Source: Phycisphaerae bacterium
GTDB taxonomy: Bacteria; Chloroflexota; Anaerolineae; 4572-78; J111
Direction of reading: 5' to 3'
DNA length: 64,000 bases
Assembly (NCBI GenBank): GCA_028285035.1
Contig: JANQQF010000120.1
Coordinates: 223,072 to 287,071, forward strand
This document shows positions 14,838 to 26,613 of the stretch, piece by piece (within the stretch, counting starts at the first letter, position 1; the number at the start of each line of letters is the position of its first letter). The notes below the pieces were generated by a model, which saw only the letters and a list, made by a program, of their open reading frames with translations, was not told the DNA's origin and did no database searches. A program made the translations under genes and the position numbers.

Positions 14838-15461
14838 ATGACGACCAAACTAAAAATCGATTTATCACAGGGGCTATTGGAAGTTGAGGGAACTGAGGCC
14901 TTTGTTAGAAATATTTATGCAGATTTCAAAGCGCATTTTGCTGGTATTGCCCCACCGGAGGATAAGCCAGCAAAACGTCGGCCTCGTCGCAAGAAACCTG
15001 AACCCGCTGTAACGGAACAAGCCAAGCCGGAGCCAAAAAGTTTGCCCGATGTTTCTGGGGCTGATCTCGAGCCTACACCTGCGGAAACACCTGTTCAAAA
15101 ATCCCCAACACGTTCACGTACGACAACCTATACCTACACAATCATTGATGATATCGAGCTGGCTGGTACAAAAAATTATCCTTCTTTGGTAGATTTTATG
15201 GACTCAAAATTGCCCATTACCAATGAGGAGCACAATATCGTATTTCTTTACTATCTTCAGCACTTGCTCAAAGTTAAGCCCATCACAATCAATCATCTCT
15301 ATACCTGTTATCGTTCAGCAAAAATCCGCGCACCCTTAAACATTGAAAATACATTTGATCAGCGAGGCTGGATTAAGGTCGCGAAAAACGGGAATATGAC
15401 CCTGACCGATGCGGGGAAAAAATATGTAGAGCAGAGCCTCCCTAAAAAACTGAAAGGGTGA
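14838..15461 (+). CDS. Unknown protein with basic linker and winged-helix-like C-terminus
   Basis: Start chosen at ATG 14838, preceded by GGAAGAGGG; an earlier ATG at 14784 would add 18 residues that include part of the promoter region. The 207-aa product has a short N-terminal segment (LKIDLSQGLLEVEG, then FVRNIYADFKAHF). A Lys/Arg/Pro linker (about 42-100, KRRPRRKKPEP) follows, then a helical C-terminal domain (about 110-205) ending in TLTDAGKKYVEQSL, which reads like the last helix and wing of a winged-helix fold. DNA binding is possible but unproven. I do not recognise a named family. It lies 153 bp ahead of the NuoEF operon on the same strand. Confidence 0.75.
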   Translation: MTTKLKIDLSQGLLEVEGTEAFVRNIYADFKAHFAGIAPPEDKPAKRRPRRKKPEPAVTEQAKPEPKSLPDVSGADLEPTPAETPVQKSPTRSRTTTYTYTIIDDIELAGTKNYPSLVDFMDSKLPITNEEHNIVFLYYLQHLLKVKPITINHLYTCYRSAKIRAPLNIENTFDQRGWIKVAKNGNMTLTDAGKKYVEQSLPKKLKG

Positions 15462-15614
15462 TCGGACTTGGTCATTAAGTCGCCAAATTTTTATCAAATT
15501 GAGGCGAGCAATCCCCCTTCTCCTATACGCTCTAACCATTTGCCCTCACCCCTAAATTAGGTTACTATTTCAACCCTTTACCAATATCTTTATACTTCTG
15601 CGAAGAGGCAATTA

Positions 15615-17741
15615 ATGACTGAGAAACTCGAAAGATTTACAGCTGACCTGTGGGCAGGTCAAGCTAGCCGAGCTAGTTTGTTTTGGTTGCGGTGTTTTAT
15701 CCAGCACGCTCAGGCAGGTGTGTTACGTTCAGATGTTTGGGTCGATACTGGTCTGCGGGAAGGGGCTGAAGTTCTTGGTCTTGATCCCACAGATTTATCT
15801 CCCCGTTTGGCGCTCTTTGAAGATTATGCTCTATTTCAAGCCGAGCGATTGAAGGATCAGCAGATTTTTTCTGGTGAGGCTTTGACCTCTCTAGATTGGA
15901 ATCGTAAGTATAACCTCTCTTTAGCTTCAGATGTCACTGAAGCATCTGTTTCCGATCAAATTGAACAGTTATGGAGTGAACTCGGTGGTGTTTCGCCCGA
16001 GGCCGAGGCGCTGGAAAAGCTTTTGACCGAGCAAACGACAACTTGGGGACATAATCTACCTGATCGTTCCCGCCTCCCCGAAATTTTGCACGAAGCTCAG
16101 AATATCTATGGCGGCTGGTTGCCTCGTGAGGTGATGGCTCATATTGCCCATAGCCTAAAATTGCCATTGGCTGATGTGTATGGTGTCACTGAATTTTTTA
16201 CGATGTTTTACACCGAACCCATTGGTAAGAAGATTATTCGAGTGTGTGAAGATGCGGCCTGCTCGATGGGTGGATCACACGCTGTAGAAGAGGCGTTGTG
16301 CCATCATCTTCAAGTTGAGCCTAATCAAATGACCGCAGATGGTGAATATACCATTGAGCCGATTCGCTGTTTAGGACTGTGTGATCACGCCCCGGCTGCT
16401 TTGGTCAATGAAACACGCCACTACAATATTTCAACTGACTCCCTTGACTCGTTGCTCAACAATGAGCCTCGAAATGAACAGGTTGAAAATAAAATTGGGG
16501 GTGTAGCTAAGGTTGCTTTGGCCAATGTCAATGTTGTTGATCCGGAAAGTCTGGATGATTATCGGTCGCAGGGAGGAGTAGCTGCATTTCGCAAAGTCTT
16601 AACCCAAATGACCCCGGAGACGGTGATTAGTACCATCAAAGAAAGTGGATTAGTTGGCCGGGGTGGGGCGGCTTTCCCTACAGGATTGAAATGGGAGTTT
16701 ACCGCCGGAAACCCACCTGGACCACGACACGTCATTTGTAACGCGGATGAGAGTGAAGTTGGGGCATTTAAGGATCGGGTTTTGATGGACAATGATCCAT
16801 TTCGCGTGTTAGAAGGTTTGATGATTGCCTGCTATGCAGTTGGGGCCGAGCAAGGGTTCATTTATATTCGTGGCGAGCATCACGAAATTTATCGACGTTT
16901 TGTTCGAGCTGTTAAGGCTTTAGAAGAGGCAGGCTGGCTTGGTGAAAATATTCAAAACTCAGGCTTTACCTGCCACATTGGTGTTCGGCGTGGGGCAGGG
17001 GCTTATATTTGTGGTGAAGAGACTGCGCTGATGGAAGCTCTTGAAGGAAAACGTGGCTTCCCACGGTTGCGCCCACCTTTCCCGACAACGCACGGTCTTT
17101 GGGGTAGACCTACTGTTATCAACAATGTTGAAACCTTCGCCAAGGTTCCAGCGATTATTTTGCACGGTGGGGCTTGGTATCACTCCTTAGGAACCCAGGA
17201 CTCTGCTGGAACGAAACTGTTTGCAGTTAGTGGCTCTGTAAAACGTCCAGGGGTGTATGAAGTGGCCTTTGGCATGCCCTTGCGGTTTCTCATTGAGGAT
17301 TTGGCTGGTGGGGTCATTGAAGGGCGTAAGTTACGAGGCATTCTTACGGGGGGCGCGGCAGGAACTTTCCTTCAACCAGAACACCTTGATACCATTATTA
17401 GCTTTGAGGCCTTCAAAGAAGTGGGTGGCACGATTGGGGCGGGTACGATCATTGTCTTTGATGATACTGTTAATCCGGTTGAGGTTGTTACCACGGTCGG
17501 CGAGTTCTTCTCGCACGAAAGCTGTGGCAAATGTTACCCCTGCCAAATTGGGACACAGCGTCAAGCTGAGATTCTGAATCGTATCCAAAAGGGGCAAGGT
17601 CGCACAGGTGATGTGGACACTATTTTAGAATTAGCTCAAGTGATGACTGATACCAGTATTTGTGGCTTAGGGCAATCTGCAGGCTGGGCTGCGACTGATG
17701 CGATCAAGCGCTGGCCTGAATTTTTTGAGAATGGTAAGTAG
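15615..17741 (+). CDS. NuoE-NuoF fusion, NADH-oxidising diaphorase subunit
   Basis: A 708-aa flavoprotein. An N-terminal extension (1-115) resembles nothing I know. A NuoE/thioredoxin-like [2Fe-2S] part (about 125-285) has CEDAAC near 210 and CLGLC near 252. A NuoF part (about 310-708) has the FMN/NADH loop GRGGAAFPTG near 350, ICGEETALMEALEG, and the [4Fe-4S] motif ESCGKCYPCQIG near 640. It oxidises or reduces NAD(H) and passes electrons to the HoxU/NuoG-like partner encoded 27 bp downstream. No membrane Nuo subunits, hydrogenase or formate dehydrogenase genes are next to it, so the terminal partner is unknown. The ATG at 15615 has a GAAGAGG site. Confidence 0.92.
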   Translation: MTEKLERFTADLWAGQASRASLFWLRCFIQHAQAGVLRSDVWVDTGLREGAEVLGLDPTDLSPRLALFEDYALFQAERLKDQQIFSGEALTSLDWNRKYNLSLASDVTEASVSDQIEQLWSELGGVSPEAEALEKLLTEQTTTWGHNLPDRSRLPEILHEAQNIYGGWLPREVMAHIAHSLKLPLADVYGVTEFFTMFYTEPIGKKIIRVCEDAACSMGGSHAVEEALCHHLQVEPNQMTADGEYTIEPIRCLGLCDHAPAALVNETRHYNISTDSLDSLLNNEPRNEQVENKIGGVAKVALANVNVVDPESLDDYRSQGGVAAFRKVLTQMTPETVISTIKESGLVGRGGAAFPTGLKWEFTAGNPPGPRHVICNADESEVGAFKDRVLMDNDPFRVLEGLMIACYAVGAEQGFIYIRGEHHEIYRRFVRAVKALEEAGWLGENIQNSGFTCHIGVRRGAGAYICGEETALMEALEGKRGFPRLRPPFPTTHGLWGRPTVINNVETFAKVPAIILHGGAWYHSLGTQDSAGTKLFAVSGSVKRPGVYEVAFGMPLRFLIEDLAGGVIEGRKLRGILTGGAAGTFLQPEHLDTIISFEAFKEVGGTIGAGTIIVFDDTVNPVEVVTTVGEFFSHESCGKCYPCQIGTQRQAEILNRIQKGQGRTGDVDTILELAQVMTDTSICGLGQSAGWAATDAIKRWPEFFENGK

Positions 17742-17768
17742 ACAACGACAATCTCTCGGAGACACATA

Positions 17769-18419
17769 ATGAGTGAGACCATAAATTTAACAATCGACGG
17801 TCAAAGTGTGACCGTTCCCAAAGGGACAACAATTTTGGATGCAGCCGCATCAGTTGGTGTTGAAATCCCAACCATTTGCTATCATCCCTCCTTAACACCA
17901 CCAGCAATTTGTCGTTTGTGTACAGTTGAGGTGACAAACCAGCGTGTTTTGCAACCAGCTTGTGTGGTTCCTGTGGCTGAAGATATGGAAGTGAATACTC
18001 AATCTGATCGGGTGAAATCGGGCCAAAAAGTTATTTTGGAACTCTTAGCCTCGACAGTTGATTTGAGTGAGGCTCCCGAAATTGAGCAACAAATCGAAAA
18101 AAGTGGGGCTGATGTAGAGCGCTTTGCGGGTGGCGTCAAACGTGAGTTTGATGTCTTTGAGGACAACCCCTTCTACATCCGAGATTACTCTCAGTGTGTG
18201 ATGTGTTGGCGTTGTATTCAGGTGTGTGCCGAAGATGTTCAGCACACCTTTGCCCTGACTTGGGGTAAGCGTGGTATCGAAAGCCATGTCGCCACCTTCT
18301 TTGATGAAGATATGCCAGATACAACTTGTGTGTTCTGTGGAAACTGTGTTGGGGTTTGCCCGACGGGTGCCCTAAAGGGACTGGTTGAGTGGAAGTTGGA
18401 GCAGGAGTCTAGTGGCTAG
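17769..18419 (+). CDS. HoxU / NuoG N-terminal-like iron-sulfur subunit
   Basis: A 216-aa electron-transfer subunit. A plant-type [2Fe-2S] domain (residues 1-80, cysteines in CYHP, CRLC and QPAC) is followed by two [4Fe-4S] ferredoxin motifs ([11 protein letters not shown] and [12 protein letters not shown]). At this length it matches HoxU or the N-terminal part of NuoG and lacks the molybdopterin domain. It has GGAG ahead of the ATG and sits 27 bp after the NuoEF gene. Together they form a soluble diaphorase able to link NAD(H) to an unseen hydrogenase, formate dehydrogenase or other redox enzyme. Confidence 0.9.
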
Positions 18420-18888
18420 TATTGAGTCTATTGTTGCTGACTTTAAATACGGGCGTGCTGAAATTTTACGAGCGATAGCGGGCCTCTCAGAGGCTGAACT
18501 CACTGAGGTGCTCGTGTATGAAGCTTGGACGATCAAAGATATCCTAGCCCATTTGATAGGGTGGGATGAGTGGGTGATTTCTATTCTTCCGCTAATTACT
18601 GAGGCCCGTGCCGACGAAATTCCGCTGATTAATCGTGAGGCTTACAATCAACAAACCCTTAATTTGTGGCAGACTAAATCAGTTGATGAAATTCAACAAA
18701 AGCTACAGGAAACGCATGAGGCGGTCGTACACATGCTCTCAAATCTTGATTATGTCGAAATTGATACACGTCATGAACGCGATGGCCGTGTGATCACAAT
18801 ACGCAGTTACGTCGTAGATGTCGTCGAGGAGCACGAACGTCAACATGCCGCTGAAATTTTGGCGTGGCGGAAAGAGAAGGGGTTATGA
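18412..18888 (+). CDS. DinB/ClbS-like four-helix bundle protein
   Basis: Start chosen at GTG 18412, which has GGAGCAGGAG upstream and overlaps the HoxU-like stop by 8 bp; a TTG at 18385 is less likely. The 158-aa product has [16 protein letters not shown] and, near the C-terminus, [14 protein letters not shown]. The histidines and their spacing fit the metal-binding DinB/ClbS/DfsB bundle. Members act as hydrolases, thiol transferases or protectors against reactive compounds. Its place between a diaphorase and a CMD-type peroxidase-related protein suggests a redox or detoxification role (inference). It overlaps the next start by ATGA. Confidence 0.8.
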
Positions 18889-19475
18889 GACCCACATTGA
18901 AACCCTGGATCCGCTGGGTGTTTGATGAAGAAGCCAAGGGCTTGCTCAAATCCGAATTTGAGAAAGCAATGAAACGGGCGGGCCGAATTTGGAATATTGT
19001 CCGAATTATGAGTCCGAATCCAAAAGCCCTGCAGGCCTCGATGCGTTTGTATGGGGCCACGCTCATTCAATCAAGCGAAAGACTGGGCCGTCCCGAGCGT
19101 GAGATGATCGCGGTGGTTGTTTCACAAGAAAATCATTGCCATTACTGAACACAAGCACATTTGCACGACCTCCGTGAAGAGGCGAATGATGATGACTTAG
19201 TTGATCGGTTTGCTGAGAATTGGCGAACGGCTGGTTTGCCAGAAGCGATCTTGGCTACGTTAGAGTTTGCGGTGAAATTGACCCGTACACCAGAAAAAAT
19301 GCAGCAACAAGATATTAAGGATTTGCGGTCGCACGGCTATACTGAAGCAGAAATTCATGATATCGTGCAGATCACCTCTTTTTTCAATTATATCAATCGT
19401 GTGGCTGATGCTTTAGGTGTGCCCCCTGATGATGGCATTATGACCCCTTGGCTGCGTGAGGAGGGTGATTGGTAA
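18885..19475 (+). CDS. Peroxidase-related CMD/AhpD-like selenoprotein (in-frame UGA = Sec88)
   Basis: Read through the UGA at 19146-19148, this is a 196-residue carboxymuconolactone-decarboxylase/AhpD-type protein. Residues 1-87 contain LGRPEREMIAVVVSQENHCHY, and residues 89-196 start TQAHLHDLREE and include KLTRTPEKM and FFNYINRVADALGV. The family's redox motif is Cys-x-x-Cys-x-x-x-His. Here it reads Cys85-His-Tyr-UGA88-Thr-Gln-Ala-His92, so the UGA falls exactly on the second redox cysteine. No frameshift is needed, and conservation continues across it. A SECIS-like hairpin follows 20 nt later, and a tRNA-Sec gene is present at 26518. The likely role is thiol/selenol peroxidase or reductase chemistry. 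The ATG overlaps the previous stop (ATGA), so it is the last gene of the diaphorase operon. A nonsense mutant is the alternative. Confidence 0.88.
19166..19184 (+). promoter_or_regulatory. Putative bacterial SECIS stem-loop
   Basis: CGaCCUC-CGUGAA-GAGGCG: six base pairs with one bulged A and a 6-nt loop with G at loop position 2. The stem begins 17 nt and the loop 24 nt after the UGA at 19146-19148. This fits the known bacterial SECIS layout, with an apical loop roughly 16-37 nt downstream and a G early in the loop. The hairpin is inside the coding sequence, as SelB-dependent decoding requires. Confidence 0.65.
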
Positions 19476-19510
19476 ACGTCTTGTTTAGCAACTGTACTTA
19501 TGATATTTTA

Positions 19511-19547
19511 CCCGATAAATTATGTCTATGATTTATCGGGATTTTTG
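19511..19547 (+). terminator. Rho-independent terminator of the diaphorase-selenoprotein operon
   Basis: CCCGATAAAT / ATTTATCGGG stem followed by ATTTTTG, 35 bp after the stop at 19475. Confidence 0.9.
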
Positions 19548-19650
19548 TTTATATATCTGGAAATAAAAGGTAAAAAATTTGCCTGATACCTGCTTACGGT
19601 ATAAGCTACGACGTTGGAAGTATATATCGTCTTTGAGAGGAAGAGATACG

Positions 19651-20451
19651 ATGGATCCCGAAATCCGGGCCAAACTTGACCAGCATTTGATTAGTGCCAG
19701 ATCCAAGATTTATCGGACAATTAGTGGAGGGATGTTTGAACTTATGCGAGATTGGACCCGTGCTTATAGCGGCGTGCCGGTCTCAACCTACAATATATTT
19801 CAACCCCTTACCCCCGAAGGATTGACCGATGATACCCTAGCTGATACTGCCGCCTTTTTTTCTTCGATGGGCGTGTTGTATGCGGTTGAGTTGGTGCACG
19901 ATCAATTCCCAGAAGGCCCTGATTATCTCGACAAATTACATTATCAACCGCTGCCGCCGCATCTGGCTATGTATTTTGATGGACCATCTAATTTTGACGG
20001 TATTGAACTCAACTCTGGTGCGACGGTTGAGCATGTTACCAATGTGCCATCGCTGACTGCATTTTGTACCCTCCTTCACCAAACGTTTGACTACAATCTT
20101 GATGATATGATTAAGCTACATCCAGTCCTCCATCTCAGTGAGGATTTGCGAGATACCATTCGCTATTACTTGGCCTTTGTTGATGAGCAACCTGTAGGGG
20201 CGGGTACGTTGATTTGTTTAGACGGGGTAGCCAGTATCTCCAATGTTTGTACAGCCGATGCCTATCGACGGCAGGGGGTGGCCACCACGTTGGTTCATCA
20301 AATGTTGACTGATGCCGATGAGATGGGCTATCAACTCAAGGTTTTATACTCAACGGCCCACTCCTTCTCACTTTTTAGTCGTTACAACTTTGAGATCTTT
20401 ACCCAGCGACAATGGTTTTTGCCTTCTGGCGTAGATTACGAGGAGTGGTAA
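19651..20451 (+). CDS. GNAT-family N-acetyltransferase
   Basis: Start chosen at ATG 19651 (AGAGGAAGAG upstream); a TTG at 19579 in the same frame is unlikely. The product is 266 aa. The C-terminal half (about 145-265) is a GNAT domain: VGAGTLICLDGVASISNVCT, then the acetyl-CoA loop YRRQGVATTLVHQML, then FSRYNFEIF. The N-terminal half (about 1-130) may be a substrate or second GNAT-like domain. The acceptor is unknown. It is followed 1 bp later by an arginase-family gene, so the two are probably cotranscribed. Confidence 0.85.
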   Translation: MDPEIRAKLDQHLISARSKIYRTISGGMFELMRDWTRAYSGVPVSTYNIFQPLTPEGLTDDTLADTAAFFSSMGVLYAVELVHDQFPEGPDYLDKLHYQPLPPHLAMYFDGPSNFDGIELNSGATVEHVTNVPSLTAFCTLLHQTFDYNLDDMIKLHPVLHLSEDLRDTIRYYLAFVDEQPVGAGTLICLDGVASISNVCTADAYRRQGVATTLVHQMLTDADEMGYQLKVLYSTAHSFSLFSRYNFEIFTQRQWFLPSGVDYEEW

Positions 20452-25275: not shown

Positions 25276-25977
25276 TTATTCAATCTCAAGCATAATTCGC
25301 TTGTTAATTTTTCCTTTACTCTTGTATCCAGCGACCTTGATTGTACCCACTTCACAGGTGTTGGCTACATGAGTACCCCCATCGGCCTGTAAATCGAGGC
25401 CTTCGATTTCAACAGTGCGGACTTCCATAATGCCTTCTGGGAGCAAATTAATTTTTGTCCGAATCAGGTCGGGGATTTGGAAGGCTTCTTCACGAGGTAG
25501 AACGTTGACGTGAATATCACGTGCGGCTGTAACTTCGGCGTTCAGTTTTTCCTCGATTTCCTGAACGAGATCTTGTTGCAACCGCTCAAACTCAAAATCC
25601 ATTCGCCCTTTCAGCACATCCATATTGCCGCCTGTTACTTGAGCCTCGTAATCTCGCCAAACAACACCACATAGGATGTGAAACGCCGTGTGGGTTCGCA
25701 TCAATTTGTGGCGGCGATCCCAATCAATTTTGCCTTGAATAGTGTCTCCTTCCGCTGGAAGATCGCCATTAAGCCAATGCCAAATGTGTTCGCCCTGCCG
25801 TTTCACTTTTGTCACAGGTACATCACTGATGTATCCGTAGTCACAGGGTTGCCCGCCCCCACCTGGATAAAAGGCCGTTTTGTCCAGCGCAACCGCATTT
25901 TCTTCTGTGTTGAGTGCAACGACAGTTGCTTCGAATTCTTGTAAATAAGCATCCGTATGTGCTAATAATTCAGTCAT
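25276..25977 (-). CDS. AlaX-type alanyl-tRNA trans-editing protein
   Basis: Start chosen at ATG 25977, preceded by GGAGGG; a longer in-frame reading from 26070 runs through the T-box terminator and is not real. The 233-aa product has the glycine-rich motif AFYPGGGGQPCDYG of AlaX-M and the zinc motif HTAFHIL. It also has the second zinc half GGTHVANTCEVG. AlaX removes Ser or Gly wrongly attached to tRNA-Ala. Its position directly behind an Ile-type T-box and ahead of ileS means it is induced when isoleucyl-tRNA is short, which is an odd partner for an Ala editing factor. Confidence 0.92.
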   Translation of the reverse strand: MTELLAHTDAYLQEFEATVVALNTEENAVALDKTAFYPGGGGQPCDYGYISDVPVTKVKRQGEHIWHWLNGDLPAEGDTIQGKIDWDRRHKLMRTHTAFHILCGVVWRDYEAQVTGGNMDVLKGRMDFEFERLQQDLVQEIEEKLNAEVTAARDIHVNVLPREEAFQIPDLIRTKINLLPEGIMEVRTVEIEGLDLQADGGTHVANTCEVGTIKVAGYKSKGKINKRIMLEIE

Positions 25978-25999
25978 CTTCCCTCCAATTTTTGAAAAC

Positions 26000-26034
26000 A
26001 AAAAACTCTCAATCCCAATTTGGGACGAGAGTTT
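26000..26034 (-). terminator. T-box attenuator hairpin
   Basis: On the minus strand, AAACTCTCGTCCCA pairs with TGGGATTGAGAGTTT, followed by a T run. It competes with the antiterminator formed with the GGGTGGTACCGCGG element. Confidence 0.88.
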
Positions 26035-26413
26035 GATTTCCCGCGGTACCACCCAAGTTGGTGGAGTCATCGATGTCGATGGCCCACCCGCTCATTGATC
26101 TACAGATCATTTTATTCTATAGATCCGCCTGGATAACGGTTGGCGATTCCGGCTGAGCCTAATTGATGTGAGTTTGTAGGGTTTGTGGCGTTTATAGAGT
26201 TAGTAGAGTTAAAATTTTTCAACTCTATAAACCCTATGAACTCTAGTCACTCTACAAATCTATATCTTTCAGTCAGCAGCTCAGGAAGGATTTTCGGTCA
26301 AGGTGTTGTATCTGGCTTGCACCATCCCAGACTCGCTATTACAACAAGAACTCAGTTATAAGATCCCTTTACCTACTCGTTTCCGTCATAGCTATTGCTT
26401 GATTATTTGATCG
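26000..26413 (-). ncRNA. T-box riboswitch, isoleucine-type specifier
   Basis: Leader RNA read on the minus strand. Stem I has the GA-motif region GACGGAAACGAGTAGG, the distal GGGATGGTGCAAGCC block, and GAAAATCCTTCCTGAG on the 3' side, where the specifier codon reads AUC (26291-26289). The conserved T-box GGGTGGTACCGCGG is at 26054-26041. An intrinsic terminator with a T run follows at 26034-26000, and alaX starts 23 bp later. The AUC specifier agrees with ileS as the synthetase gene of the operon. An unusually long imperfect hairpin lies between stem I and the antiterminator (26172-26259). Confidence 0.93.
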
Positions 26414-26517: not shown

Positions 26518-26613
26518 GGGAGTGGATGTCGTCCGGTGGCGGCCCTGGTCTTCAAAATCAGTGGGCGGTTGCGAGCAGCAAGCGTCGGTGGGTTCGACTC
26601 CCATCCTCTCCCG
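26518..26613 (+). tRNA. selC: tRNA-Sec(UCA)
   Basis: A 96-nt gene with the special shape of bacterial tRNA-Sec. It has an 8-bp acceptor (GGGAGTGG with CCTCTCCC, one U-U mismatch) and an anticodon arm CTGGT-CTTCAAA-ATCAG whose anticodon UCA (26552-26554) reads UGA. The long variable arm is built on GGTTGC/GCAAGC, and the T arm is GTGGG-TTCGACT-CCCAT. The discriminator is G, and CCA is not encoded. It shows that the genome decodes UGA as selenocysteine, provided selA, selB and selD lie elsewhere. It supports the in-frame UGA gene at 18885. Confidence 0.93.

Follow-up and report, generated by a model that had tools for sequence, protein, structure and literature searches.

The gene considered here lies at positions 18885–19475 on the + strand of the window (the whole 64,000-nucleotide stretch of DNA analysed). 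Its reading frame opens with an ATG at 18885, closes with a TAA at 19473–19475 and is free of frameshifts. The sole internal stop is a TGA at 19146–19148, codon 88, and read-through translation thereby confirms the original prediction of a single in-frame UGA without a frameshift. The read-through product has 196 residues, with the putative selenocysteine (Sec) at position 88 in the motif C85-H-Y-U88-TQA-H92 (encoded as Cys-His-Tyr-UGA-Thr-Gln-Ala-His). By score, and over nearly its whole length, it is a member of the NCBIfam model TIGR01926, peroxidase-related enzyme (5.3e-46; 156.6 bits against a cut-off of 81.8; residues 7–183 on profile positions 1–177 of 178). It shows the feature of that model, a Cys-x-x-Cys/Sec pair with the relay Glu and His, and it matches the Pfam CMD family (5.1e-12). 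Standard ORF calling splits the gene in two, as had been anticipated, into an N-terminal half ending at 19148 (mechanical start GTG 18864, with the ATG at 18885 inside it) and a C-terminal half at 19161–19475; the read-through reading corrects that. When the 64-kb window was scanned for TGA codons flanked by 40 or more codons on either side, with overlap of no more than 40% with ORFs at least 130 codons long, this gene was the single place to emerge.

Three genes precede it on the + strand. The nearest, at 18412–18888, encodes a DinB/mycothiol-transferase-like protein (Pfam DinB_2, 6e-11), for which we take GTG 18412 as the probable start within a mechanical ORF of 18385–18888. Its stop overlaps the ATG of the AhpD-like gene by 4 nt, which suggests that translation of the two may be coupled. 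Further upstream are genes for a HoxU/NuoG N-terminal-like iron–sulfur protein (17769–18419) and a diaphorase-like NuoE–NuoF fusion (15615–17741), both assigned by family matches and treated here as neighbours only. Downstream, a terminator-like hairpin of 13 pairs (19511–19540, + strand) is consistent with the end of the transcript; the consensus scan of 15400–19700 in which it appears gave 9 sites against a shuffle mean of 4.8, a comparison that is not evidence of function.

Gene order in the window agrees with the suggestion that a diaphorase operon ends with this gene, but the diaphorase part finds no counterpart in L001, the closest relative whose upstream flank could be read. That locus has a DinB-like protein in common with the window (55% identity) and, alone among the 66 loci searched, shares the order DinB–AhpD–GNAT–arginase. 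Neither the HoxU/NuoG-like nor the NuoE–NuoF gene has a hit there, and the gene 5′ of DinB–AhpD looks like a MetF/homocysteine-methyltransferase-like gene, judged from its ORF. Searches with the diaphorase genes found nothing in the 66 loci, most of which have flanks of only about 1.5 kb and make a weak test beyond L001. We regard the linkage of the diaphorase genes to the selenoprotein gene as probably incidental. One database protein (P0016, 314 aa) carries DinB-type domains and an AhpD N-terminal half in one chain that ends exactly before the expected UGA, and is possibly a fusion.

A scan of genome contigs shows TGA at codon 88, with family sequence on both sides, in all eight relatives from named genomes (one Chloroflexi, one Anaerolineales, two Terriglobia and four Bryobacterales), although the six acidobacterial relatives are close to one another on the tree and the eight do not amount to eight independent cases. 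For a broader view, a set of 127 loci was placed on the family profile; it consists of the window, the eight contigs, 58 of 60 loci from two profile searches (the other two duplicate contigs already included) and 60 hand-fetched regions. The Sec column holds TGA in 101 of these, TGC in 20, TGT in five and AGC in one, with no TAA or TAG; 101 of 127 is not a frequency, as the sample is biased and the hand-fetched regions leaned to rows flagged beforehand as TGA. The pairing of UGA with Cys proposed as a check is thus evident, with a Cys codon in 25 of the 26 non-TGA loci. The exceptional locus, L103 (G484:C68), carries the Ser codon AGC in place of Sec or Cys and retains the first Cys. The profile searches found matches in 139 of 400 Chloroflexota and 114 of 297 Acidobacteriota genomes. 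The 30 loci taken from each phylum, by a ranking that favours kin of the Sec-rich alignment, divide into 16 TGA and 14 Cys for Chloroflexota and are all TGA for Acidobacteriota. Six changes between Sec and Cys can be counted on a quick tree whose deep branches are weak and which includes several long rows, a rough figure that leaves out the Ser row. In each of six genomes (G248, G150, G393, G448, G506 and G559) there are two AhpD-like genes with a TGA, belonging to different subgroups. A plasmid search gave 585 records, all below 60% identity, with the five listed rows at 32–37%.

These data bear directly on the possibility that the locus is a pseudogene or a sequencing error, that is, a Cys-type gene with an accidental stop at codon 88 and a truncated product. 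Such an explanation would account for the split ORFs, and the nearest full-length database homologue (P0002) does have Ser at column 88. We nonetheless consider it very improbable. The TGA is kept in the named relatives and in most placed loci across two phyla, the stop occurs at one column only without other decay, and pairing constrains the codons 3′ of the UGA within the family (see below). Decay in relatives, in the form of further stops, was looked for: the eight relatives have none, and in the 127 placed loci stops other than the column TGA are confined to the final few residues of the match.

Database proteins give a second view of the same column. Among 121 sequences (the best 120 of 284, plus the query), five fragments are N-terminal halves that stop exactly at C-x-Y and three are C-terminal halves. 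Twelve proteins (P0002–P0009, P0012, P0021, P0040 and P0111) have another residue at column 88, namely Trp in eight, Ser in two, Arg in one and Gly in one. The Trp and Gly rows could be read as evidence that UGA88 is translated as Trp (code 4) or Gly (code 25), or is passed by programmed or leaky read-through of the stop. Three observations make this very unlikely: (i) the upstream DinB gene has its TGA stop just at the end of its Pfam match, meaning that UGA keeps its role as a stop there; (ii) the non-TGA loci have Cys in all but one case and (iii) the contig carries a tRNA-Sec with a TCA anticodon. A simpler account of the Trp and Gly rows is that gene callers applied codes 4 and 25. The two Ser and one Arg are so far unexplained.

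The tRNA-Sec gene lies at 26518–26612 on the + strand (Rfam RF01852, 67.4 bits against a gathering threshold of 47; ARAGORN 26518–26613), 7 kb downstream of the selenoprotein gene. An AlaXM-like alanyl-tRNA editing gene (25276–26070), some 450 bases away from the tRNA-Sec, is located between it and an isoleucyl-tRNA synthetase gene. NCBIfam scans of 17 window proteins gave no match to SelA, SelB or SelD; tRNA-Sec, SelA, SelB and SelD are all above cut-off in each of the eight relative genomes. In the two Chloroflexota relatives SelD itself contains one in-frame TGA (G001:C681:5222-6139 and G007:C315:5753-6748), and in G007 SelD and tRNA-Sec share a contig; Sec-type SelD with an in-frame TGA is a known kind. 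Since 305 of the 400 Chloroflexota genomes contain tRNA-Sec, its co-occurrence with the TGA gene adds little, and its presence is necessary, not discriminating. Of the 15 genomes whose TGA matches rank best, 11 also have a tRNA-Sec hit; the other four lack one in that search, but all have SelA.

Following the UGA, the window reads ACACAAGCACAUUUGCACGACCUCCGUGAAGAGGCG, and a SECIS-like hairpin can be drawn at 19167–19184 (+ strand), inside the coding sequence and starting 18 nt 3′ of the UGA. Its arms are 19167–19172 and 19179–19184, with an apical loop CGUGAA at 19173–19178; the stem has four contiguous pairs (CCUC/GAGG), to which the minimum-energy fold adds pairs beneath a bulged A. The available text of PMC13188914 gives limits for bacterial SECIS elements of a 3–9 nt loop, a stem of at least 4 bp, a G in the first two loop positions, a spacing of 16–37 nt and a minimum free energy of at most −7.5. 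Measured against these published values the window hairpin is acceptable, with a loop of 6 nt, a stem at the 4-bp minimum, the loop G at position 2, a spacing of 24 nt and a minimum free energy of −9.1 kcal/mol (51-nt segment). Taken by itself it does not stand out from synonymous shuffles (z −0.76; 61 of 300 fold as well), nor significantly from dinucleotide shuffles (z −1.52; 17 of 200 fold as well), and Rfam has zero matches at the site up to an E-value of 1. As the window copy alone is unremarkable against shuffles, the evidence for a hairpin sits in the family.

A group test of minimum free energy over the downstream 48 nt gave a weak signal (mean z −0.81), and we used in its place counts of base pairs compared with protein-preserving synonymous shuffles. 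Two registers, initially picked by eye, describe the family. In register A, nt 19–24 after the UGA pair with nt 31–36 and the loop begins at nt 25; this register is found in a subgroup with the protein motif DLRxE, which includes the window. In register B, nt 11–16 pair with nt 22–27 and the loop begins at nt 17, as in many other Sec members. The 101 TGA genes form 5.34 of 6 pairs in their better register, against 4.02 in the shuffles, and the corresponding values for the 26 non-TGA genes are 3.08 and 3.15. Five or more pairs are found in 84 of the 101 TGA genes and in 2 of the 26 non-TGA genes. Two genes reach five in both registers and 17 of the 101 in neither; the window, with 4 of 6 model pairs, is one of these 17. 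Eight Sec-type genes (L025, L026, L071, L080, L090, L093, L130 and L136) fall below four in both and may represent further SECIS forms.

Because the registers had been chosen by eye, scans of 252 registers served as a control. Within the DLRxE subgroup, represented by 24 non-redundant loci of which the window is one, the best of the 252 is register A (5.58 against 4.30 pairs, z 8.4), and the Leu codon is CTC in all 24. In the remaining 66 Sec loci the highest values belong to register B and the register one base away from it (z 14.5 and 14.8). When all 90 non-redundant Sec loci are pooled, the best eight registers all lie around nt 9–14, and register A tops the scan only when the DLRxE subgroup, which is defined by protein motif, is taken separately. 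In 24 non-Sec loci z stays at or below 3.7 for every register, versus a maximum of 11.8 in the pooled Sec set. None of these statistics is a probability, as related sequences are not independent.

Covariation supports one pair in each register. Pair 14–24 of register B is formed in 43 of 50 distinct sequences (shuffle mean 27.9; 0 of 1000 shuffles as high) and includes a compensatory swap from G-C to C-G in 13 sequences. Pair 21–34 of register A is formed in 26 of 26 (shuffle mean 23.4; 1 of 1000 as high), with C-G replaced by T-A in three. No covariation was seen in this test for the remaining pairs of either register, which therefore carry little information. The conserved Leu codon, nt 22–24, lies in the 5′ arm in register A and in the 3′ arm in register B. 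About five changes of register can be counted on the quick, weakly supported tree, a rough figure for which rows fitting neither register were excluded and the window was assigned to register A by hand. It may be that the SECIS element has changed register inside the coding sequence of a single family, the fold flipping while the protein motif stays in place; we hold the chances for and against this to be evenly balanced.

The pairing of UGA with Cys, the conservation over two phyla, the downstream SECIS-like hairpin and the tRNA-Sec on the contig together argue for a Cys-x-x-Sec AhpD/CMD selenoprotein, as originally proposed. We consider it very probable that the gene at 18885–19475 is an AhpD-like selenoprotein (TIGR01926/COG2128) in which SelB and the hairpin decode UGA88, and which is likely to act as a peroxidase or disulfide-reductase adaptor. 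Actual insertion of Sec at UGA88 is what we infer from the sequence. In this scheme SelB with Sec-tRNA(Sec) would read UGA88 owing to the hairpin 18 nt downstream.

An AlphaFold model of the protein, computed from an alignment of 30 sequences and with Sec replaced by Cys, has a mean pLDDT of 94.5. Its best matches in the PDB are 2prr, 6k40, 2pfx and 3c1l (TM on query 0.79–0.86), well ahead of Mycobacterium tuberculosis AhpD. Mlr4105 (3c1l) and the peroxidase-related proteins of Silicibacter (2pfx), Ralstonia (2prr) and Deinococcus (6k40 and 2oyo) resemble the window protein in fold and sequence, and the alignments with 3c1l, 2pfx and 2oyo place a Cys where the window protein has Sec. A further comparison is with the AhpD-like PA0269 of Pseudomonas aeruginosa (2o4d, 2ijc). 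According to the available text of PMC3141380, the proton relay of PA0269 consists of Glu36, Cys48, Tyr50, Cys51 and His55, and the authors measured a weak reduction of H2O2. That protein is shorter than the window protein and has Cys-x-x-Cys. All five relay residues, Tyr included, have counterparts at the published spacing in the window protein, namely Glu73, Cys85, Tyr87, Sec88 and His92. Glu73, Cys85, Tyr87 and His92 are invariant in both of our alignments (A1 and A2), and position 88 is invariant in A2 only, with Sec read as Cys and the rows with Trp, Ser, Arg or Gly at this column left out.

Given the PA0269-like spacing and the invariant relay residues, our best guess is that Sec and Cys form a redox pair whose target would be a peroxide or a disulfide. 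The protein is most likely a thiol/selenol peroxidase or a disulfide-reductase adaptor, an assignment made by homology, as is that of its putative substrate. An all-helical protein would carry the Cys85-x-x-Sec88 pair within the AhpD proton-relay set. Sec88, presumably in preference to Cys85, would attack the peroxide; Cys85 would then resolve Sec88 as a selenenylsulfide, and reduction, perhaps by a cellular thiol system, would complete the cycle. It is also conceivable that the protein is a selenoprotein of other function, such as a reductive dehalogenase or another thiol-transfer enzyme, by comparison with the CMD-fold debrominase Bmp8. Bmp8 resembles deiodinase chemistry. The model does match the Bmp8 structures 6ohj and 6ohi (E about 1e-5, TM 0.74–0.75), and the experimentally studied Mycobacterium tuberculosis AhpD (1knc) matches it more weakly than Bmp8 does (E 0.04, TM 0.48). 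The closer matches in both fold and sequence are the peroxidase-related 2prr, 6k40, 3c1l and 2pfx, though these are mostly titled as uncharacterised, and we judge a dehalogenase or other thiol-transfer role to be improbable.

AhpD-like CxxU selenoproteins of TIGR01926/COG2128 have been in the literature since 2005, and are listed in the available text of PMC1088965, PMC2398784, PMC1794560, PMC9312934 and PMC13188914. They share both the NCBIfam model and the Cys-x-x-Sec motif with the window protein. As far as the accessible portions of these papers go, the known set comprises sequences from the Sargasso Sea and GOS, two cases encoded in genomes and a further single accession, with 27 Sargasso Sea sequences in PMC1088965 and 299 AhpD-like 1 (COG2128) and 70 AhpD-like 2 (pfam02627) sequences in PMC2398784. 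Two Chloroflexi genome papers mention selenocysteine, to go by their titles (PMC4959059, PMC5736913). A further model, NF041238 (AhpD_rel_CFYUT), for an alkylhydroperoxidase-related (seleno)protein, has a homologous C-terminal domain (8.3e-17), and the C-F-Y-U-T of its name resembles C-H-Y-U-T in the window protein; the latter aligns to positions 152–339 only of its 357 and scores 61.5 bits against a cut-off of 175, placing it outside that family.

The window gene thus belongs to the already known AhpD-like CxxU selenoproteins, with sequence evidence that is unusually clear in its case, and the two registers of the family are less expected. Relative to the accessible portions of the published lists, the Chloroflexota and Acidobacteriota loci and the two hairpin registers are described here, and the open-access literature searched, to the extent of its available text, holds no mention of two SECIS registers in one family. 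TGA occupies the redox column in no fewer than 32 of the 400 Chloroflexota genomes and 53 of the 297 Acidobacteriota genomes searched, lower bounds drawn from the matches that were read, so many such AhpD-like genes may be split in databases. SECIS prediction models are said, in the available text of PMC13188914 and PMC12013277, to be incomplete on the hairpin positions that SelB accepts. On that point the two registers of this family offer a natural set of cases to compare.
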